Below, in pieces: positions 31,673 to 59,281 of a DNA stretch of 64,000 bases. Made by a program: the position numbers and the translations under genes. The stretch lies in contig NZ_RPEM01000008.1 in NCBI RefSeq assembly GCF_004745575.1, positions 329-64,328 on the forward strand, in the 5' to 3' direction. Position 1 is the stretch's first letter; each line of letters begins with the position of its first letter. The stretch comes from Pseudotabrizicola sediminis (GTDB lineage: Bacteria > Pseudomonadota > Alphaproteobacteria > Rhodobacterales > Rhodobacteraceae). The notes under the pieces are model-generated. The model worked only from the letters and a program-made list of their open reading frames with translations. It was not told where the DNA came from and ran no database searches.

Positions 31673-31904
31673 GGTCGGCACATTCACATTCAAAAGAGTC
31701 TGCCATGCTTGGCACGACAAAAGTTGCACGCAACATTGACGCGGCCCTCCCCGACGTCACCGGGCGCAAAGATGTTCCACACAGTCGGAACAGTCCCTGC
31801 ACGGCTGGAATTAACTCGGGATAAACCGGCGACAGCGTCGTGCGTCTCTGCGGAAAAGCTGCGACCATTCGGAGCGATGGCCTGGACGGCTACTGAGATT
31901 TTCC
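31673..31904. other. Intergenic spacer between cobF and the IS5-family element
   Basis: No gene is recognisable. A short TGCCA/TGGCA dyad just after cobF could be part of a weak terminator. Otherwise nothing is seen. Confidence 0.4.
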
Positions 31905-32809
31905 AGGGTCAGGACTCGTTCTCGTTTCATGGCCAGAACATGACGGTTGCTGCCAGAGCGACGGCGGAGTGGAAAACCTTCGGGCATCGGTCGTAACGGG
32001 TGGCGCCGCGCCTCCGGTCCTTCAGCCGCCCGAACATGATCTCGATCCTGTTGCGTCGTTTGTAGCGGCGCTTGTCGTGCTTGATGGGCTTGGCGCGCGA
32101 CTTCCGGCCCAGGATGCAGGGTTTTATCCCCCTGTTTTTCAACACATCTATGGATCAGTCGGCATCGCAACGCCGGTCGGCCAGCAGCCACCCCGCCTTT
32201 GGCAAACCGCCCAGCGGGGCAGCTGCCCCGATAGGGTCGCTGACCTGGCCTGCGGTCGTGAAGACGCGCAACGGGCGGCCTTCCGCATCGGTAACGGCGT
32301 GCAGTTTGGTTTTCATGCCGCCCTTGGTTCGGCCGATCAGGCGGCTCCTTTGGTCCTATGGCTCCCCTTCTTCGACCGCAGTCTGGTGGCTGTGCCCCAC
32401 TCGCACATGCCTTGCATGTGCTGCCGGGCAATGGGTCCGCCTTCAGATAGGTCGCGTCGCTCATGATGGTCTTCTGCCCAGTGCCTTTTGAGGCCAGCCC
32501 CTCCATCAACCTCGCGAAGATACCCTTGTCGCCCCACCGCTTCCATCGGTTGTAGAGCGTCTTCGGCGGGCCATATTCCTTGGGCGCATCAAACCACCGC
32601 AAGCCGTTGCGACTGATAAGAATCATGCCGCTCAAAACCCGCCGATCATCGACGCGCGGCTTCTTATGGCTCTTTGGAAAGAACGGTCTCAGCCGCTCCA
32701 CCTGCTCGCCCGTCAGCCAGACTGGAGTGCTCATGATCACCCGCGTAGCTCAGGGGCCTCGACACACGCAGCAGCGGCAGCCTCAAGCAGATCAATGGGT
32801 CCTGGCCCT
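31905..32809 (-). mobile_element. IS5-family insertion sequence, degenerate (905 bp)
   Basis: The ends AGGGTCAGGACTC (31905-31917) and GGGTCCTGGCCCT (32797-32809) are inverted repeats matching at 11 of 13 positions. They enclose a transposase of the IS5 family, IS427-like group. No clear target-site duplication flanks them. The element sits exactly at the junction between the B12 locus and the aromatic-degradation island. Confidence 0.7.
31927..32737 (-). pseudogene. IS5-family transposase, frameshifted and with an internal stop
   Basis: The N-terminal part reads STPVWLTGEQVERLRPFF, ILISRNGLRWFDAPKEYGPP and TLYNRWKRWGDKGIF. The frame then changes after DATYLKA. The middle reads LLADRRCDAD followed by TGA where active relatives have Trp (YDADW). 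The C-terminal part reads LKNRGIKPCILGRKSR, RRYKRRNRIEIMFGRLKD and RCPKVFHSAVALAATVMFW. The DDE core is therefore split and the element cannot move by itself. Confidence 0.85.
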
Positions 32810-50796: not shown

Positions 50797-51807
50797 TCAG
50801 GACAGCTCTGGCTGGATCAGCACTTTGCATTGTGTGGTGCGCCGCCGCAGGCTTTCAAACACCTGGGGCACTTGTGTCAGACCGATCCGATCGGTGACGA
50901 TCTGCTGCGGCAGACCGCCCGCAAGCGCATCCAGCGCCACGCCGAATTCGTTGCGCTGGTGAAAAAACACCGCAAAAATCAAGTCGATCTCTTTGGTCAG
51001 CGCGATGAACGGGTCCCATTCATCGCCGCCGACGCACAGGCCGACGCCCACCACCTTGCCTTGCAACCGCACCGCCTGGACCGCTGCTTGCAAAAGGCCG
51101 CGCTTGCCGACACATTCAAACACGATATCGGGCGGCCCCCCGCACAGATCAGCGATGTTCTCGGCCAATCTGTCGCCTGACAGCGCAAAATCGGTGGCCC
51201 CAAGTGCCAGCGCGCGCGCGCGCTGATGGGTGTGAAGATCGGCCATCACCACATGCAAGGCCCCCATCCGTCGCGCCCAAAAGGCGACCAGCAGGCCGAT
51301 AGGTCCGGCACCAAGAATCGCAACCCGGTCGCCGGGCTTTACCCCTGCGCGCACCACGCAGTGTAAAGCCACCGCAAGCGGTTCGGCCAAAGCACCATCT
51401 GCAAGCGCGACGGCAGGCGGCAGCTTATGGCACTGCCGCGCTGCAACGGTGACGAATTCGGCATAGCCGCCACCGATCAGTACCATCTGCGCGCAACGCG
51501 CCGGATCACCGGCCAGACAGCGCGCGCAGCGCCCGCAGCCTCGCATCGGCACCACAGCCACGCCATCACCGGGCGTGAATTCGTGAACCTCTGCCCCGAC
51601 GGCCACCACCTCACCTGCGATCTCATGACCAAGCACAAAACCCGCACCAATTCCAAAGGGGGCAGGATCTTCGGTGATATGCAGATCGCTACCGCAGATG
51701 CCGCAGCCGGCAACACGCAGCACCACCTCATCGGGGCCAGGTGCTGGGTCGGGCTGCACACCAATCCGCAGCGGGGTGGCGACCGCGTCAAAAAAGGCTG
51801 CTTTCAT
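50797..51807 (-). CDS. Zn-dependent alcohol dehydrogenase (MDR superfamily)
   Basis: 336 residues from the ATG with GGAGG upstream, overlapping the livM stop by ATGA. Catalytic zinc site GCGICGSDLH and GHEIAGEVVAVG; structural zinc cysteines in RGCGRCARCLAGDPARC; Rossmann motif VAILGAGPIGLLVAF. Oxidises a secondary or primary alcohol, possibly a side chain of the imported compound. Confidence 0.9.
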   Translation of the reverse strand: MKAAFFDAVATPLRIGVQPDPAPGPDEVVLRVAGCGICGSDLHITEDPAPFGIGAGFVLGHEIAGEVVAVGAEVHEFTPGDGVAVVPMRGCGRCARCLAGDPARCAQMVLIGGGYAEFVTVAARQCHKLPPAVALADGALAEPLAVALHCVVRAGVKPGDRVAILGAGPIGLLVAFWARRMGALHVVMADLHTHQRARALALGATDFALSGDRLAENIADLCGGPPDIVFECVGKRGLLQAAVQAVRLQGKVVGVGLCVGGDEWDPFIALTKEIDLIFAVFFHQRNEFGVALDALAGGLPQQIVTDRIGLTQVPQVFESLRRRTTQCKVLIQPELS

Positions 51808-52835
51808 GGCTTTTCCTCCGGTGTGTAGACCAGGTGGCGACGGATCGGGAACCAGTGCACATCCCACCGCTTTGACACCGCGCCCCAGATGCCGCCCCGT
51901 GCATAAAGCGCGACAAACACGGTCATCACCCCCAGCACCACGAAATAGCTGGCGCCATACTGGCCGAACCAGCGGTCGGCGATGAAATAGATCAGCGAGC
52001 CGATCAGCACTCCCTCGATCGAAGCGATACCGCCGACCATCACGATGAAGATCGCCACATTCGCCCACATCGGATCAAAAGCCGAAGGCGGGTTGATCCG
52101 AAGCTGCGCCATCGCGTAAACCGCGCCCGCCAATCCGCAGCCCACGGCCGCCGCAACATAGATCATGAAGCGCAATCGCCGCACATTCACACCTTGACTG
52201 GCGGCTGCCACAGGGTTGTCACGCATGGCGATCAAGGCAAGGCCATACCGCGAACGCAAGAACCAGTAGCTCCCCCCTATGGTCAACAAGATCAGAAGCG
52301 CGCACAGCAGCGACATGGCGACATTGCGCTCGAACAGCGAGTATTCCTTCATCACATTCAGCGACATACCCGCGCCGGCGTTCAGAAAGCCCATGTTCGA
52401 CGCCACCAGCCGGAACACCTCTGCCACCACCCAGGTGCCGATGGCGAAGTAAGGCCCGTCCAGCCGGTGCAGCAGCATGTAGCAGGGCACAGCCAGAAAG
52501 GCGGGAACCAGCAAAGCGATGAAAATTGCCAGAAACGGGTTCACACCAAAGGTCTGCGCCAGCACGAACAGCGCATACCCCGCAGCCCCCATAAAGGCTT
52601 GCTGGCCCACCGACACCAAACCGGCATAGCCCGCCAACATGTTCCACATCTGGGCGACCGCAATATAACAGCAAAGTTCAAGAACCATGCGGATCGTTCC
52701 GGTCTTTGCCCACCACGGCATCGCGGCCAGAGCAACCACCGCCAACAAGAAGAGCACCATGGCGACACGCCCGCCAGGTGTCTGTCTGCGAACAGTCACG
52801 CGCGGCAGTGCTGGGGAAAGGGCAACAGTTGTCAT
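51804..52835 (-). CDS. HAAT ABC permease, LivM family (second set)
   Basis: 343 residues. LAGYAGLVSVGQQAFMGAAGY, GPYFAIGTWVVAEVFRLVA and FIVMVGGIASIEGVLIGSLIY identify LivM. Belongs to the complete set SBP-livG-livF-livH-livM (51.8-56.5 kb) inserted among catabolic genes. Confidence 0.93.
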   Translation of the reverse strand: MTTVALSPALPRVTVRRQTPGGRVAMVLFLLAVVALAAMPWWAKTGTIRMVLELCCYIAVAQMWNMLAGYAGLVSVGQQAFMGAAGYALFVLAQTFGVNPFLAIFIALLVPAFLAVPCYMLLHRLDGPYFAIGTWVVAEVFRLVASNMGFLNAGAGMSLNVMKEYSLFERNVAMSLLCALLILLTIGGSYWFLRSRYGLALIAMRDNPVAAASQGVNVRRLRFMIYVAAAVGCGLAGAVYAMAQLRINPPSAFDPMWANVAIFIVMVGGIASIEGVLIGSLIYFIADRWFGQYGASYFVVLGVMTVFVALYARGGIWGAVSKRWDVHWFPIRRHLVYTPEEKP

Positions 52836-52838
52836 ATC

Positions 52839-53696
52839 TCAGACCTTTCCAAACAGTCCCTGCGGGCGGATGGCCAGCACGAGCAGAAAGACAAGGTGAC
52901 CGGCCAGCACACCAAAACCGGGGTCAATGCGAAAGCCGATGGCCTGCGAGACGCCCAGCACCATGGACCCGATGAACGCCCCCCAGACCGAGCCCATGCC
53001 GCCGATGATCACCGCCTCAAAGGCGTAGATCAGCTGCGCGCCACCGTCGGCCGGAGCCACAGTTGAGCGCAGCGACTGAAATACGGCGGCAAAGCCGAGG
53101 ATACCGACGGCAATGGCGGTGGCCGAGGCATAGACGGCGCGGGCGTTGATACCACTCATCGACGCGGCCTCCACATCGGCCGAGGCTGCGCGCAGTGACC
53201 GGCCAAAGCGGGTGCGCTTCAGCACAAGGTCGAGGCCCCAGGTCAGGGCGGTGGCAAAGGTCAGCACCAGCACCGGCAACAGACCGACATAGATGCCGCC
53301 GATCTGGATCGATTGACTTTCGATGCCGCCCCCCGGCAATGATCGGCTGTTGGCCGACCAGATCTGCAACATCATGTTTTGCAGCGCAATCGACAGGCCA
53401 AAGGTCGCGATCAGCGACGGCAACGGATCGTCGCCTACCACCTTGTTCAGCACGACCTTTTGCAGCAGCCACCCCAGCGCAATTGCCAACGGCACAAGCG
53501 CGACCATCACCGTGAACGGACCCCAGCCAAAGTTGGAGGCCAGCGAAATCCCGATCAACGACAAAAGAATTACCAGATCGCCATGGCTGACATTCACGAT
53601 CCGCATCACACCGAACATCAAGGCCATGCCAAGGGCATATTGCGCATACATGCCGCCAAGCAAAATACCCTGGATCAGCGCGTCAAACCACTGCAT
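52839..53696 (-). CDS. HAAT ABC permease, LivH family (second set)
   Basis: 285 residues. ALIQGILLGGMYAQYALGMAL, MRIVNVSHGDLVILLSLIG and YAFEAVIIGGMGSVWGAFIG are LivH features. Its start overlaps the livF end by 14 nt. Confidence 0.93.
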   Translation of the reverse strand: MQWFDALIQGILLGGMYAQYALGMALMFGVMRIVNVSHGDLVILLSLIGISLASNFGWGPFTVMVALVPLAIALGWLLQKVVLNKVVGDDPLPSLIATFGLSIALQNMMLQIWSANSRSLPGGGIESQSIQIGGIYVGLLPVLVLTFATALTWGLDLVLKRTRFGRSLRAASADVEAASMSGINARAVYASATAIAVGILGFAAVFQSLRSTVAPADGGAQLIYAFEAVIIGGMGSVWGAFIGSMVLGVSQAIGFRIDPGFGVLAGHLVFLLVLAIRPQGLFGKV

Positions 53697-54408
53697 GAGA
53701 GCCTCCGAAATACGCCCCGGCGATCTGTTCTCGAGTAATGGCTGACGAGGCTCCGGTCAGGGTCACGCGCCCCTCCAACAGACAGAAAATCCGGTCCGAG
53801 GCGGATTGCGCGAGGCCGACATCTTGCTCCACCACGATGATGGCAGTGCCTTGGGCCCTGATCTCGGGTAAGGCCGCGTATATTTCGCGGATCACCTTGG
53901 GTGCCAGACCCAGGCTGATCTCGTCACACAACAGCACGCGCGGCTGGCTCAGCAGCGCGCGGCCGATCGACACCATCTGTTGCTGTCCACCCGACAGGTT
54001 CTGCACCTCGGTCCGGGCTTTTTCCTTCAGGATCGGGAACAGGCGGTGCAGCCGCTCCAGCGACCAGCCTCCCGTTCGCCCAAGCCTGTCGGCCTGATCC
54101 ATTGCCACGCGCAGGTTGTCATCCACCGACATGCCGGTAAACAGGCGACGGCCTTCGGGCACGATGGCCACGCCTTTCTGAACCATGCGATCGGTTGGGG
54201 TCCCTCCGATGGGCTGGCCGTCCAGCCGCACCATTTCGGGCTTCACCGCCATCAATCCCATGATGGAGCGCAAAAAGGTGGATTTCCCCGCGCCGTTCGC
54301 GCCAATCAGCGCCACAGCCTCGCCTTCGGCCACGTCGATATCAACGCCATACAGCGCCTGAAAGTCACCGTATCGGGCAACAAGACCATGGGTGGAAAGC
54401 ACCGTCAT
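53683..54408 (-). CDS. HAAT ABC ATPase, LivF family (second set)
   Basis: 241 residues. Walker A GANGAGKST, signature LSGGQQQMVSIGRALLS, Walker B LLCDEISLGLAP. Overlaps livG by ATGA and livH by 14 nt. Confidence 0.94.
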   Translation of the reverse strand: MTVLSTHGLVARYGDFQALYGVDIDVAEGEAVALIGANGAGKSTFLRSIMGLMAVKPEMVRLDGQPIGGTPTDRMVQKGVAIVPEGRRLFTGMSVDDNLRVAMDQADRLGRTGGWSLERLHRLFPILKEKARTEVQNLSGGQQQMVSIGRALLSQPRVLLCDEISLGLAPKVIREIYAALPEIRAQGTAIIVVEQDVGLAQSASDRIFCLLEGRVTLTGASSAITREQIAGAYFGGSHAVV

Positions 54409-55133
54409 GCCTCAACCCCCATATAGACTCGCTTGACCTCTGGATTGGCGATTACCTCCTGCGGCAGGCCTTCAGCGATCTTTTCCCCAAAGTTCAGCAC
54501 CAGCAGCCGATCAGCCACCGCCATCAGCGCGTGCAGCACGTGTTCGATCCACACGATTGTTACGCCGCGGTCGCGGATGCGCCGCACCAGCGCGACCAGT
54601 GACTGCGACTCCTCTTCCGTCAGTCCGCCCGCAATCTCATCCAGCAACAAGAGCTTTGGATCTGACGCCAGCGCCCGCGCCAGTTCCAGACGCTTGCGAT
54701 CCAGCAAGGTCAGACTGCCCGAGGGGGTGTTGGCTTTGCTGGCCAACTCACATTCGGTCAGGACCTGCGCACAAAACGCATAGGCGTCCCGCTCGGACCG
54801 TCCGCCGCCAAAGGCTGCTGCGACCAGCAGGTTTTCAAAGGTCGTCATGCCCGAATAAGGCCGGGGGATCTGATAGGTCCGCCCGATGCCCATGCGGCAG
54901 CGCTTGAAGGGCGGTTCGCCACCAAGCGCCGTGCCCCCGAGGCGGATTTCCCCGCCTGAGGGTTTGATATCGCCACTGATCATATTGAACAGAGTCGTCT
55001 TGCCTGCACCGTTGGGGCCAAGAATTCCCAGCACCTCGCCCCGATACACATCGAAGCTGACCTCGTGCAGCACCCGAACCGCGCCGAAACTTTTCGACAC
55101 GTCTCTGGCCTGCAAAAATGCGTTCTGGCTCAT
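54405..55133 (-). CDS. HAAT ABC ATPase, LivG family (second set)
   Basis: 242 residues from the ATG with GGAGGGG upstream. Walker A GPNGAGKTT, the GIGRTYQIPRPYSGMTTFEN loop, signature region LLDRKRLELARALAS and Walker B LLLDEIAGGLTEEE. Follows the binding-protein gene by 22 nt. Confidence 0.94.
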   Translation of the reverse strand: MSQNAFLQARDVSKSFGAVRVLHEVSFDVYRGEVLGILGPNGAGKTTLFNMISGDIKPSGGEIRLGGTALGGEPPFKRCRMGIGRTYQIPRPYSGMTTFENLLVAAAFGGGRSERDAYAFCAQVLTECELASKANTPSGSLTLLDRKRLELARALASDPKLLLLDEIAGGLTEEESQSLVALVRRIRDRGVTIVWIEHVLHALMAVADRLLVLNFGEKIAEGLPQEVIANPEVKRVYMGVEA

Positions 55134-55155
55134 TCCCGCCCCTCCGATTGCAGGC

Positions 55156-56451
55156 TCACCAGACGATCGGCACAATGGCCTGTTCGGGTTCGAACAGTTG
55201 GTTTACCGAATTGTCGACGATCTTCAGATCATAGGGCCAGCTTTCGCCCTTTACCCACTGCCCGCCAAAGATCGGCATGGTGCAGATGTTCTTGTGCGGG
55301 GTGCCGCCGAATTTTACCGGGCCGCAAACCGTGGTGATATCGGTCGCCGCCATTGCCTCGCGGTTGGCTTCGCGGTCCATCGGGTCTGTGGAACGCTTGA
55401 GGATGTCGATCGCCACCTCCAGCAGCGCGTGAGAATAGCCCAACGGCTGTGTCCATTGGCGCTTCTGGTCGGCCTCCCATTGACTTGCCAATGCGGCACT
55501 GTTCTGCCCGGTGATGGTCGAGTTGAACGGAAAGGCAGGCGTCCACCAGACTTCGCTCGACATCCCGTTGCCAAGCTCTCCCATCGCCTCCACCCCGCCG
55601 GGGAACAGAAGCGCCGCCGCCACGGTCACGGCGCGTGGCTTGAAGCCCTGCTGGTTGCACTGCGTGACAAAGGTTTTCAGATCATCCGGATAGGTGATGC
55701 CACCAATAATATCGACTCCGGCCTGCTTGAACGCGGCAATCTGAGCGGAAAAGTCGTTCGTGCGCGGCTGGAAATAGCCGGGAATTGTGACTTCGTATCC
55801 TGCAGCGCGCGTGGGCACCGGCAGGCCATAGTCGTTGTTGCCCCAGGTCTCGCCGTCGATGTTCTGCGGGAACAGCATGCCGACCTTTTTGTTGGTTTCC
55901 AAACCGTCCCACAGGCCGACAAAGGTGTTCAGCGCCTCGTCCAGACCCCAGAAAAAGTGATAGGTCCAGTCAAAGTCACCACCCCCCCGCGGCATGATTA
56001 CCGCCTGCCACGGGGCCCCGGATGAAATGCAGGGGGCCTCATACAACTCCGCCTGCTCCATCACCGGCAGGATGGTGTCGGTGGTGGAGGCGGGCACCAT
56101 CAGATGCACCTCTTCGTTCAGGATCAAGTCACCGGCCAGTTCGGCGGCCTTGTTGGGGTTCGACTGGCTGTCGCGCTCCAGGATTTCCAGCTCATAGGTA
56201 CTGCCATTGGCAGCCTGAAAAGTGCCGCCCAGCGCGTCGCGGATCTTTTGCACGGTATAGCCGTCGGTTTCACCGAAAAGACCAAGTGGACCGGTCGCCG
56301 GGCTGATATAGGCCATCTTGACCTTACCCGCCGTCTGGGCGCGCAGATAGGTTGGCGTTGCAAGTGTCGAAGCAGCAATGCCGGCACCCATGCCCCGAAG
56401 CACAGACCGGCGACTGATCCCCGATTTGACCAGTGTATTGTAATAGGTCAT
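55156..56451 (-). CDS. HAAT ABC substrate-binding protein, Tat-exported
   Basis: 431 residues. A twin-arginine signal peptide (ISRRSVLRGMGAGIAAS, mature start near RAQ-TAGKV) precedes a Peripla_BP_6-type domain with VKMAYISPATGPLGLFGE at its start. It is the dedicated receptor of the second ABC set, encoded just after the SDR gene. It resembles the other binding protein at 59317 in layout, suggesting related ligands. Confidence 0.92.
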   Translation of the reverse strand: MTYYNTLVKSGISRRSVLRGMGAGIAASTLATPTYLRAQTAGKVKMAYISPATGPLGLFGETDGYTVQKIRDALGGTFQAANGSTYELEILERDSQSNPNKAAELAGDLILNEEVHLMVPASTTDTILPVMEQAELYEAPCISSGAPWQAVIMPRGGGDFDWTYHFFWGLDEALNTFVGLWDGLETNKKVGMLFPQNIDGETWGNNDYGLPVPTRAAGYEVTIPGYFQPRTNDFSAQIAAFKQAGVDIIGGITYPDDLKTFVTQCNQQGFKPRAVTVAAALLFPGGVEAMGELGNGMSSEVWWTPAFPFNSTITGQNSAALASQWEADQKRQWTQPLGYSHALLEVAIDILKRSTDPMDREANREAMAATDITTVCGPVKFGGTPHKNICTMPIFGGQWVKGESWPYDLKIVDNSVNQLFEPEQAIVPIVW

Positions 56452-56517
56452 CGTTGTTTCCTCCCTCTTGTTGACCATACGACCTGCTTCCTCCTCACAG
56501 GCCGCAAGGCGATGAAC

Positions 56518-57336
56518 TCACGTCATCCGTATTAATGAACCACCGTCGATCACAATCAGCGATCCGGTGAAATATGCCCCCGCAGGCGAGGCCAGCAGCA
56601 GCGCCAGACCCTTGATGTCATCGACATCTCCGATCCGCCCGATCAGTGATTGCGACTCAAACGCCGCGCGGTCGGCTTTGTTGCGCAGCCGCCCACCCGC
56701 GATATTGGTAATGAACGGCCCCGGCAAAATGGCGTTGACCCGTATCCCATACGCCCCCAGCTCCATCGCCATGTGGCGCACAAACTGGTTCACGGCCGCT
56801 TTCGCAGGCATATAGCTGGTGCCGACGATGCTTTCATTGATGAGCGCGGCGATGGATGAGGTCACTATGATCTCGCCCTTGCCAGCGGGTTTCATGTGCC
56901 GCACGGCGTTCTTTATCGTCACATAAACTGACGTCAGGTTTATCTCGATACCACGGTCCCATTGTTCGTCCGGAATGTTTTCGATGGCCCCGTCAGGGTT
57001 GCGCTCACCAGTCGGAGTATTGAACCCTGGCCCCGGGTCGATGCCCGCATTGGCAAACACCGTGTCGATACACCCGTGGCGCACGGCCACCGTATCAAAG
57101 GCGGCAGCCATGCCCGGTCGATCACCGACATCAACGATCTGGCCCCAGACATCCCATCCCTGCGCAACCATTTCGGCGACGGCCTGATCCAGTCCAGTGG
57201 CGTCGATGTCAAAGATGCAGACTCTCGCACCCTGTTGGGCCATGATTTCGGCGTAGGCCTTACCAATGCCGCTGGCCCCTCCGGTTATGATTGTCGATTT
57301 GCCGCGGACATCGAACATTGTCTCAAGTGCTGCCAT
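56518..57336 (-). CDS. Short-chain dehydrogenase/reductase
   Basis: 272 residues from the ATG with GGAGGGGG upstream. Cofactor loop TGGASGIG (18-25), NAG motif in VFANAGIDPGPGFN, catalytic S160/S161, Y175 and K179 (YMPAK), and a C-terminal GSLIVIDGGSLI. First gene of the long minus-strand operon that runs to about 41.9 kb; the DmpR-like regulator diverges from it. Confidence 0.92.
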   Translation of the reverse strand: MAALETMFDVRGKSTIITGGASGIGKAYAEIMAQQGARVCIFDIDATGLDQAVAEMVAQGWDVWGQIVDVGDRPGMAAAFDTVAVRHGCIDTVFANAGIDPGPGFNTPTGERNPDGAIENIPDEQWDRGIEINLTSVYVTIKNAVRHMKPAGKGEIIVTSSIAALINESIVGTSYMPAKAAVNQFVRHMAMELGAYGIRVNAILPGPFITNIAGGRLRNKADRAAFESQSLIGRIGDVDDIKGLALLLASPAGAYFTGSLIVIDGGSLIRMT

Positions 57337-57676
57337 CTGATCCCCCTCCGGACAGTGTGCCTGCAATCCACCCGCAGTTGAGCCCAAAGGCACTCAAAGG
57401 GACCCGATCGCGCCGGGTCTTCCCAAAAGCATTTGCGGAAAGATCCCACCCACCTCCCAGAAAGCGGAACCAATACCTTCAGTGAACATGTGAACCGACC
57501 TACAAGTCAAATGCGGAAGTCAGCGGTTAATATATCATTTCAGCATAAGTGTAAAATACTGATAAATAATGATAAAATCAAAATTGACCAGTAACCTCTA
57601 GTCTGTGGCAAAATTTGATTCATCAAATGATTAAATTTCTTTGCTTATTTAAGAATAACTGCAAAGAGTTGACGGC
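57337..57676. promoter_or_regulatory. Divergent promoter region between the SDR operon and the DmpR-like regulator
   Basis: 340 bp with a very AT-rich half (57500-57660) in an otherwise GC-rich island. It contains the palindrome ATTTGAT-TC-ATCAAAT at 57613-57628 and repeated TGATAAA words around 57555-57578. No convincing -24/-12 (GG-N10-GC) element was found, consistent with a regulator that lacks the sigma-54 contact loop. Confidence 0.6.
57613..57628. repeat. AT-rich palindrome, candidate activator site
   Basis: ATTTGATTCATCAAAT reads the same on both strands (7-bp arms, 2-bp centre). It lies 49 bp upstream of the regulator start in the divergent control region, where a DmpR-type upstream activator sequence or autorepressor site would be expected. 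Confidence 0.5.
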
Positions 57677-59281
57677 ATGAAGTCTCCGCTGCTTCCCCTG
57701 AAACGTACAATCGACTCTCCTGGATTACTGGATCGCGGAGGCCGCCCCACGGTGCGCGAACTGCTGGGCGGTCTGGCGTTTGATGCGCTGACCGGCGCGC
57801 TCCACCTGAACGGCGAGCGGGTCACCCTGCAACTTGCAGAGGCAGACCGCGTTCTGCGACGCGAACTTGTGCTTTTGCTTGGCGAGGATGAGGCGCGGAT
57901 ACTGATGCTGCGACGCGGGTTTCGGATGGGGCAGCATGATGCGGGTTTTGTCGCGCAATCCTGGCCTGCATTGGACCGGGGCGATGCTTTCTCTGCCGGC
58001 ACACGCCTGCATATGTTTAGCGGCATCGTCCGGGTCGAAACCATCCACAATGATTTCGATTTTGCGCGAGGCCGGTTTTCTGCAGAGTTCCTCTGGCATA
58101 ACTCGGTAGAGGCCGAAGATGGGCCAGACCAGCCCCGACAGTCGGACCGCCCAGTGTGCTGGCAGCAACTGGGTTATGCGTCTGGATACGCCAGTTTTTT
58201 CTTTGGGGTGCCTGTCATCTACAAGGAAACCCAATGTGTCGCTCAGGGGCATCGCTGTTGCCGCGTTCAAGGCAGGTTGGCGACAGGCTGGGGCGAGGAT
58301 GACCCGGATGTCATCTTGTTCCGCAACCGAATACTGCCTCGGATACCAGAGGCCCCCCGGCGCAAGCCGCAGGCCGGTCAGGTGCCCGATGCGGCGGATA
58401 TGCCGATTTTGGCCCCTGTGCTGCGCTGGCTTGAAAAGGCGGCGCTGTTGCCTTTGCCCTGTCTGATCGCCGGGGCAGGCAGTTGCGGGCAAGAGGTCGC
58501 AACTGCACATCTGCTGCGGCTGTCGGGTCGCGCTGATGGAGCGCTGCGGCTGACGGGGGCCAACACTGGTGTCGAGACCTTGCGTGCAGCATTGGCCCAG
58601 CAGCGCAAACCGCGCCGCAGGGATTTCCCTCCCGCACTGGTTCTTGACCGCATCGAGGCGATGCCCGCCCCCGCACAGGAAGAACTTGCGTCCGCGCTGA
58701 GCATTCAGGAACCGCAGACGTGGTCCCGGCTGGTGGTCACATCGGCACTTCCTCTGTCACATCTGGCCGCTGGGGGTGTTCTGCCCTCGCTCTGGGCGAG
58801 GCTCGCACCACTTTCGACAGAACTGCCCGGACTGGCTGACCGCCTGGCGGATCTGCCGCACCTGGCAGAATTACGCTTGCCACGCCTGGCGGCACAGTTG
58901 GGTCTTGATCCACCGGTGGTTGCTCCGGGTGCACTCGACCAACTTGGTGATCAGCCCCCCCTCCACGGCGTCGAGGGGTTGGAGGCCATTCTGACGGCGA
59001 TTTTGGTGGATACGCCAGAAGGAGCGCCCATAACGGCCACCTTGGTCGCACGCGCCTGTCAGCGTGTGGCGCCCCGGCCAAAACTGCTGGGTGAGTCAAA
59101 TGAGCTTGAGGCGCAGATCGCGGCGCAGATGACAGCAGGTTCCTTTTCCTTGCCCGCACACGAAGCCCGCATCCGTGCCTTGGCGCAACTGCAGGCCAAC
59201 GGCAATCTTTCGGCAGCGGCGCGGCTGTTGGGGATCAGTCGGGCCCAATTGGCATACCGGGAAAAGGTTGGGCAGAAATAG
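57677..59281 (+). CDS. DmpR/XylR-like aromatic-sensing regulator with a degenerate AAA+ domain
   Basis: 534 residues. Residues about 25-130 match the XylR_N aromatic-binding domain. The V4R domain spans about 130-205 (SAEFLWHNSVEAE, CWQQLGYASGYASFFFGVPV, ETQCVAQGHRCCRVQGR, with Cys 161, 187, 194, 195). The central region still shows the EBP layout but Walker A is GAGSCGQE (265-272, no GK), Walker B is LVLDR instead of LDE, and the ELFG/GAFTGA segment is absent. The C terminus keeps a Fis-type helix-turn-helix (ALAQLQANGNLSAAARLLGI). It should sense phenolics but cannot drive sigma-54 by the normal ATPase cycle; repressor or sigma-70-type action is likely. Confidence 0.88.
   Translation: MKSPLLPLKRTIDSPGLLDRGGRPTVRELLGGLAFDALTGALHLNGERVTLQLAEADRVLRRELVLLLGEDEARILMLRRGFRMGQHDAGFVAQSWPALDRGDAFSAGTRLHMFSGIVRVETIHNDFDFARGRFSAEFLWHNSVEAEDGPDQPRQSDRPVCWQQLGYASGYASFFFGVPVIYKETQCVAQGHRCCRVQGRLATGWGEDDPDVILFRNRILPRIPEAPRRKPQAGQVPDAADMPILAPVLRWLEKAALLPLPCLIAGAGSCGQEVATAHLLRLSGRADGALRLTGANTGVETLRAALAQQRKPRRRDFPPALVLDRIEAMPAPAQEELASALSIQEPQTWSRLVVTSALPLSHLAAGGVLPSLWARLAPLSTELPGLADRLADLPHLAELRLPRLAAQLGLDPPVVAPGALDQLGDQPPLHGVEGLEAILTAILVDTPEGAPITATLVARACQRVAPRPKLLGESNELEAQIAAQMTAGSFSLPAHEARIRALAQLQANGNLSAAARLLGISRAQLAYREKVGQK

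Follow-up and report, generated by a model that had tools for sequence, protein, structure and literature searches.

An aromatic-sensing regulator of the XylR/DmpR type with a degenerate AAA+ domain, shared by Rhodobacterales and Rhizobiales and probably independent of sigma-54

The regulator gene and its surroundings

The window, by which we mean the whole 64,000-nucleotide stretch of Pseudotabrizicola sediminis DNA that was analysed, carries a regulator gene and, on the opposite strand, two clusters of genes that flank it:

57677..59281, plus strand: regulator gene, XylR_N-V4R-degenerate AAA+-Fis HTH (ORF and Pfam)
57725..58060, plus strand: XylR_N aromatic-sensing domain region, residues 17-128; H112 aligns with MopR H106
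58088..58321, plus strand: V4R domain region, residues 138-215; W140 aligns with MopR W134
58397..59011, plus strand: degenerate AAA+ domain, residues 241-445, GAFTGA segment deleted (Pfam, alignments)
58472..58495, plus strand: Walker A remnant GAGSCGQE, residues 266-273 (translation, alignment)
59147..59278, plus strand: C-terminal Fis-type HTH region, residues 491-534 (Pfam, alignment)
56518..57393, minus strand: SDR dehydrogenase, which opens the divergent operon and, judged by eye, probably starts at 57336
50797..56478, minus strand: ABC transporter genes (substrate-binding protein, two ATPases, two permeases) and a Zn alcohol dehydrogenase, named by similarity to the annotated locus L065
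59317..63275, minus strand: second cluster, with a substrate-binding-like protein (by eye), a carboxylesterase-type hydrolase, a protein without a Pfam match and an intradiol dioxygenase

The first-pass annotation had described an intact gene with the XylR/DmpR architecture, and both points hold. The 534-aa ORF at 57677-59281 is open from ATG to TAG, and the combination that marks the XylR/DmpR subfamily is present, with Pfam matching XylR_N at residues 33-128 (E 3.9e-21), V4R at residues 140-198 (E 1.7e-10) and the Fis-type HTH_8 at residues 506-528 (E 2.9e-6). Between them lies a weak match to Sigma54_activ_2 (residues 251-386, E 4.1e-6, 27.5 bits against a cut-off of 25). All four domains are matched in each of the six family members of alignment A1. 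A profile of six members aligns with the CapR/DmpR chain 6iy8 over residues 6-460 (E 8.4e-58) and also with the AAA+ regulators 5m7n, ZraR, flagellar regulatory protein C and VpsR, and a profile-profile comparison with five canonical proteins covered 519 columns, the sensor among them. The middle of the regulator is thus an AAA+ domain by descent.

The sensor half retains the residues expected of an aromatic-binding, Zn-containing module. Residues C161, E184, C187 and C195 align with MopR C155, E178, C181 and C189, which we take to be Zn ligands, while MopR H106 and W134, the counterparts of H112 and W140, are presumably phenol-site residues. In the alignment with MopR all six of these residues are conserved in 16/16 regulators of the degenerate group defined below. 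Four Cys can be read from the translation of the V4R region (161, 187, 194 and 195), the number given in the first-pass annotation. For DmpR, PMC7264223 describes a phenol hydroxyl held between His100 and Trp128, Zn bound via three Cys and a Glu, and a dimer made by the sensor half.

The gene arrangement is also conserved. The large operon divergent from the regulator, already remarked upon in the first pass, recurs in all 15 other loci as SDR-SBP-ATPase-ATPase-permease; in 14 of these it continues with the second permease and the dehydrogenase, and in the remaining one the contig ends before them. The second cluster, downstream of the regulator, is found in 7/8 loci of clade I (the window's closer clade, eight proteins), the window counted. 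In L065, a cupin-type gene annotated as belonging to the 2,4'-dihydroxyacetophenone dioxygenase family sits between the regulator and the SDR gene, and a gap of about that size is seen at this position in the remaining clade II and Rhizobiales loci. The wider neighbourhood includes ABC uptake genes, an FAD ring hydroxylase, two intradiol dioxygenases and an Fe-alcohol dehydrogenase, probably a maleylacetate reductase, part of these at least 15 kb away. It points to a phenolic or polyhydroxylated aromatic as the probable effector. An IS4/5-family transposase-like gene (31811-32740, minus strand; DUF4096 match) lies upstream of the aromatic clusters.

Losses in the AAA+ domain and their distribution among relatives

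The first-pass annotation had called the AAA+ motor dead, with all residues for ATP-driven open-complex formation missing at once. Walker A indeed reads GAGSCGQE, with Lys replaced by Gln, and alignment and length together identify the absence of the GAFTGA loop as a genuine deletion. Walker B, for which an acid-to-Arg change had been noted, is ALVLDR: the catalytic Glu is Arg, but the first acid, Asp, is still present. Further losses are the sensor I Asn (to Ala), the first Arg finger (to Leu) and the sensor II Arg (to Glu). Most of the ATP-handling residues are gone; 'all at once' is slightly overstated, since the second Arg-finger column is still Arg. Among the features by which class membership was judged, the GAFTGA loop, Walker A Lys and Walker B Glu of sigma-54-dependent enhancer-binding proteins (EBPs) are absent, and the feature of sigma-70-acting EBP paralogues, an EBP-derived protein without GAFTGA, is present.

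Relatives were collected from several sources. The same-genus search matched 4/16 genomes (3 of them degenerate, window included) and the same-family search 11/394 (10 degenerate, window included). The named genome collection gave 6 loci, of which 5 were used, 2 of these being duplicates of others, and the plasmid search matched 103 records, 44 of them from Pseudosulfitobacter, of which one (L065) was read. After counting duplicates once (L003 and L006 with L038, L012 with L007), the aligned set comprised 16 distinct degenerate proteins, two intermediates (L039 and L048) and 19 canonical proteins including XylR of pWW0. The weak XylR_N matches L057 (no EBP) and L058 were left out of tree and counts, as was L011, an ordinary EBP with GAFTGA at 27% identity. 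Also outside the 16 stand L070 and L080. L080 is the only match besides Neorhizobium petrolearium's own among the 297 genomes of that order searched; it is degenerate too, with GSGC at its P-loop. L070 (2989-4613, a plasmid of Rhizobium sp. RCAM05350) is a regulator copy in three frames, either broken or affected by a sequencing fault, beside operon genes that are still recognisable. The 44 Pseudosulfitobacter plasmid records (H1-H44) match the regulator at 37-38% identity over 98% of its length, L065 falls in clade II, and no near-identical copies of the regulator were found on plasmids.

The degeneration is common to the 16 regulators. In the alignment each position scored is intact in all 19 canonical proteins, whereas among the 16 degenerate ones the GAFTGA Thr, the sensor I Asn and the sensor II Arg are retained in none, the Walker B Glu in one, the Walker A Lys in two, the Walker B Asp in three, the first Arg finger in four and the second in eight. 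The distance from Walker A to the HTH is 227-242 residues in 16/16 degenerate proteins versus 262-288 in 19/19 canonical ones. Orthologues at 82, 75, 74, 67, 61, 57 and 56% identity to the window protein show the same AAA+ degeneration.

Only the sensor half went into the tree, which keeps the AAA+ columns that define the trait from influencing the grouping. A branch with 100/100 support separates the 16 degenerate regulators from the rest; since the tree is rooted at its midpoint, calling them a clade assumes a root among the canonical proteins. L039 and L048, a second XylR_N-V4R type with GAFTGA deleted and with both the Walker A Lys and the sensor II Arg retained, adjoin a canonical Rhizobium protein. 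Loss of GAFTGA needs two changes on this tree, and these two proteins would represent the second, separate loss. No SDR gene was found beside either of them.

The order of events within the clade may still be visible: all 16 are without the loop, the sensor I Asn and the sensor II Arg, and the two aligned Rhizobiales members retain GSGK at the P-loop. The P-loop Lys has gone from L080, which comes from the same order as one of these two. The GSGK of the two aligned members could be taken as a sign of a regulator that binds nucleotide and does not hydrolyse it, like NtrC of Rhodobacter capsulatus, with the nucleotide setting the oligomer, and a 1998 Genes Dev paper is, by its title, said to concern an ATP-dependent EBP that activates the housekeeping polymerase. 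We consider this reading improbable: the Walker A Lys is Gln in the window protein and lost in 14/16, and none of the 16 retains the sensor I Asn or the sensor II Arg.

Losses on this scale, together with the three-frame plasmid copy, could also reflect a decaying pseudogene or an assembly artefact. Against this, reading frames are open in the 15 other degenerate relatives used, the operon is conserved, and the same losses occur in separate assemblies, which excludes an assembly error. Between the window and its nearest orthologue dN/dS is 0.12 for XylR_N, 0.005 for V4R, 0.15 for AAA+ and 0.09 for the HTH. Over 8 of the 28 clade I pairs (Nei-Gojobori), XylR_N gives 0.05-0.18, the AAA+ remnant 0.15-0.44 and the HTH 0.09-0.24; dS approaches saturation in several of the comparisons and is undefined in others. 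Constraint is looser in the linkers, where one value exceeds 1 (residues 216-240, L041 versus L008, 1.47). Judged by its range of 0.15-0.44, the AAA+ remnant is under purifying selection, relaxed but constrained. Since orthologues down to 56% identity share the degeneration and dN/dS of the domain stays below 1, we regard a decaying allele as excluded, and decay or artefact together retain next to no probability.

Intergenic DNA and the presence of RpoN

The intergenic region common to the regulator and the SDR operon contains the following elements:

57506..57518, no strand assigned: conserved block GTCAAATGCGGAA; its minus strand carries the -35-like TTTGAC
57529..57534, minus strand: TATATT, an AT-rich block that is conserved and may be a -10-like element or belong to an operator
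57622..57631, no strand assigned: ATCAAATGAT, the left arm of a dyad; the dyad is less distinct in the window than in L040, L041, L042 and L008
57379..57482, minus strand: segment separating the conserved block from the SDR gene; it carries two conserved stem-loops and may be a leader (alifold)

We scanned 400 bp upstream of each gene for a -24/-12 element (TGGCACG-N4-TTGCW, maximum score 15). The first-pass annotation had seen no obvious site upstream of the window gene, and the best score there is 10/15, a value reached by 199/200 shuffles. Scores of at least 13.5 were obtained for 7/19 canonical genes, 0/2 intermediates (L039 and L048) and 0/16 degenerate genes, a cut-off chosen after the scores had been seen (Fisher p 0.009 at 13.5, 0.047 at 13, 0.010 at 12.5 and 0.078 at 12). 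The scan misses real sites, because 12/19 canonical genes are likewise without a strong site and the pWW0 xylR-xylS region, in which we take Ps to be a sigma-54 promoter, scores only 12.5 (reached by 25/200 shuffles). The tail of L071, intended as a Pu control, proved to lie outside the Pu region and was disregarded. One degenerate gene, L037, has a score of 13 beside the SDR start (4/100 shuffles), absent from the other degenerate genes.

A sigma-70 scan of 57320-57690 returned 0 promoters (shuffles, mean 0.5). The conserved blocks nevertheless suggest a divergent promoter with a poor -10, for which the TTTGAC on the minus strand of the conserved block would be the -35-like element of the SDR operon; since the formal scan finds none, this promoter is probably weak or unusual. 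The sequence GTCAAATNCGGAA is matched in 7/8 clade I genes and with one mismatch in the eighth, and its sole exact match in the window's genome is the window's intergenic region. In clade II, GTCAAA is present in 6/6 loci with an imperfect GC-rich palindrome centred 25-26 bp off (L045 was judged by eye, the other five by pattern). Another copy lies close to the regulator start in 4/6, again by pattern. This operator pattern was drawn up after viewing the sequences and carries no chance control. The GTCAAA block was found in 0/2 Rhizobiales loci. If TTTGAC is the -35, the clade II palindrome would lie at about -57, a position usual for activators that touch RNA polymerase.

These blocks bear on a different possibility, that the regulator is a ligand-released repressor, which would sit on them, stop the divergent promoter and leave or change shape with the aromatic. 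Such a protein would require neither an ATPase nor a sigma contact, and the conserved GTCAAAT block overlaps the -35-like TTTGAC itself. A repressor, however, would usually guard a promoter that is strong by itself, and the scan sees no strong sigma-70 promoter; Pfam, moreover, describes XylR_N as 'Activator of aromatic catabolism', and to our knowledge the characterised members of the XylR/DmpR family are activators, which we also count against repression. We give the repressor a minor share of the probability and favour an activator.

In the stretch at 57379-57482 the stem-loop has the loop CUGGGAGG in 7/8 clade I loci. Its alifold energy is -18.4, where 50 column shuffles average -0.27 (sd 0.65), and some pairs covary. 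Four single sequences barely fold better than shuffles (z -0.25 to -1.4), and either strand is possible. An Rfam search of 57300-57760 gave one match, at 22.1 against a gathering score of 48, which we took as chance.

In the window's genome, 4.04 Mb in 86 contigs and 99.99% complete, PF04552 (Sigma54_DBD), PF04963 (Sigma54_CBD) and a same-genus RpoN protein each gave 0 matches; in the controls, 4/14 genomes matched in each Pfam search and 5/10 genomes with the RpoN-protein query. There is a small chance that an RpoN gene lies in an assembly gap. Two same-genus genomes with an orthologous regulator do have RpoN, as do 12/15 carrier genomes searched with Sigma54_CBD. In the family sample, Sigma54_DBD detected RpoN in 7/10 carriers versus 129/394 genomes over the cut-off (140 at E 0.001), so that RpoN is commoner in carriers than in their kin (p 0.017-0.038). 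Loss of RpoN as the driver of the change was rejected because 12/15 carrier genomes keep it: the regulator appears to persist without RpoN in the window's genome, yet such a loss is not common to the carriers.

The regulator is the only XylR_N match in its genome. A co-regulator of another EBP, as had been suggested from the first reading, would form mixed oligomers and modulate a sigma-54 promoter; the sensor half is conserved, and in DmpR it makes the dimer (PMC7264223). Such a role is made very unlikely because there is no second XylR_N match for a partner and no RpoN was found.

The same genome has 10 Sigma54_activat matches, and six of the loci were looked at. L078 (4670-6106, contig C23) encodes an EBP of the response-regulator kind that reads GSFTGA and whose ATPase motifs look intact; its presence in a genome without detected RpoN counts against the reading favoured here. 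L024 (contig C1), another response-regulator EBP, reads GAFPGA. According to PMC3162934, Pro is preferred at that position in EBPs with a defective GAFTGA, and a Jannaschia EBP with altered GAFTGA occurs in a genome without sigma-54.

Proposed mechanism and relation to known systems

Taken together, these results suggest that the regulator is a one-component aromatic sensor that is sigma-54-independent, probably ATP-independent and most likely a sigma-70 activator, the reading to which we give the better part of the probability. The change of mechanism proposed in the first-pass annotation is thereby supported: the losses are shared, the remnant is constrained, no RpoN was found in the window's genome and no -24/-12 site was seen. 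The XylR_N/V4R half would bind a phenol-like aromatic and Zn and probably hold the protein as a dimer, and the Fis-type HTH would bind the intergenic region common to the regulator and the SDR-ABC-transporter operon. The AAA+ domain would neither hydrolyse ATP nor contact sigma-54, and would instead be a scaffold passing the ligand signal to the HTH. With ligand bound, the regulator would most likely recruit or help the housekeeping (sigma-70) RNA polymerase at the divergent promoter. From the DNA and protein sequences come the losses, their sharing by relatives, the purifying selection, the conserved operon and intergenic blocks, and the lack of a detected RpoN and -24/-12 site; from these we infer the ligand, the dimer, ATP-independence, activation over repression and the sigma-70 partner.

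For the clade as a whole, Rhodobacterales and Rhizobiales together, we would put no better than even chances on the broader proposal that a sigma-54 machine has become a motor-less sigma-70 one-component switch, in which the AAA+ fold would be only a ligand-to-DNA scaffold.

Opening of sigma-54 promoters by ligand-gated ATPases is known in textbook form from XylR and DmpR, and the genes for XylR, DmpR, MopR and PoxR are often divergent from their catabolic operon. The window regulator is like these four in its XylR_N and V4R sensor, phenol- and Zn-site residues, AAA+-derived middle and Fis-type HTH. Unlike them, it is without GAFTGA and the catalytic ATPase residues, its AAA+ domain is shorter, no -24/-12 site was found, and it sits in a genome where no RpoN was found. 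It resembles TyrR, DhaR, HupR, NtrC of Rhodobacter capsulatus and Caulobacter, and probably VpsR as an AAA+ EBP without the sigma-54 contact loop, and would like them serve other promoters; here the difference is that most members of the degenerate group have also lost nearly all ATP-handling residues; the sensor domains of those proteins, too, differ from XylR_N-V4R. A further parallel is L039/L048, which has the same XylR_N-V4R sensor and lacks GAFTGA but keeps the Walker A Lys and the sensor II Arg.

Precedents exist in the literature. TyrR, DhaR, HupR and probably VpsR are EBP paralogues without GAFTGA at sigma-70 promoters (PMC3162934), NtrC of Rhodobacter capsulatus and Caulobacter are likewise EBP paralogues that moved to sigma-70 (PMC10274813), and some GAFTGA-less EBPs act at sigma-70 promoters without ATP hydrolysis (PMC3162934, PMC10274813). 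The sub-domain architecture of Geobacillus PheR differs from that of DmpR and XylR (PMC2590616). MphX, considered as a precedent for a motor-less co-regulator, was rejected as a member of an unrelated protein family (PMC3063778). Among the open-licence PubMed Central titles and abstract openings listed we found no report of a XylR/DmpR-type regulator with a dead AAA+ domain, which is no proof of absence. Sigma-54-independent EBP paralogues are thus already known, while a XylR/DmpR-type group with both loop and ATPase gone seems, from those titles and abstracts, unreported. Rather than a sigma-54 EBP, we class the regulator as a XylR/DmpR descendant that would work like the sigma-70-acting EBP paralogues.

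If a conserved group has indeed discarded the motor and retained the sensor, it would illustrate how regulators of this type can switch from one polymerase to another. The orthologous regulators and operons in a genome without detected RpoN and in same-genus genomes with RpoN form a natural test pair, and aromatic biosensors needing neither RpoN nor an ATPase could result. The group also carries a warning, as naming such proteins sigma-54-dependent by their domains alone would be wrong.
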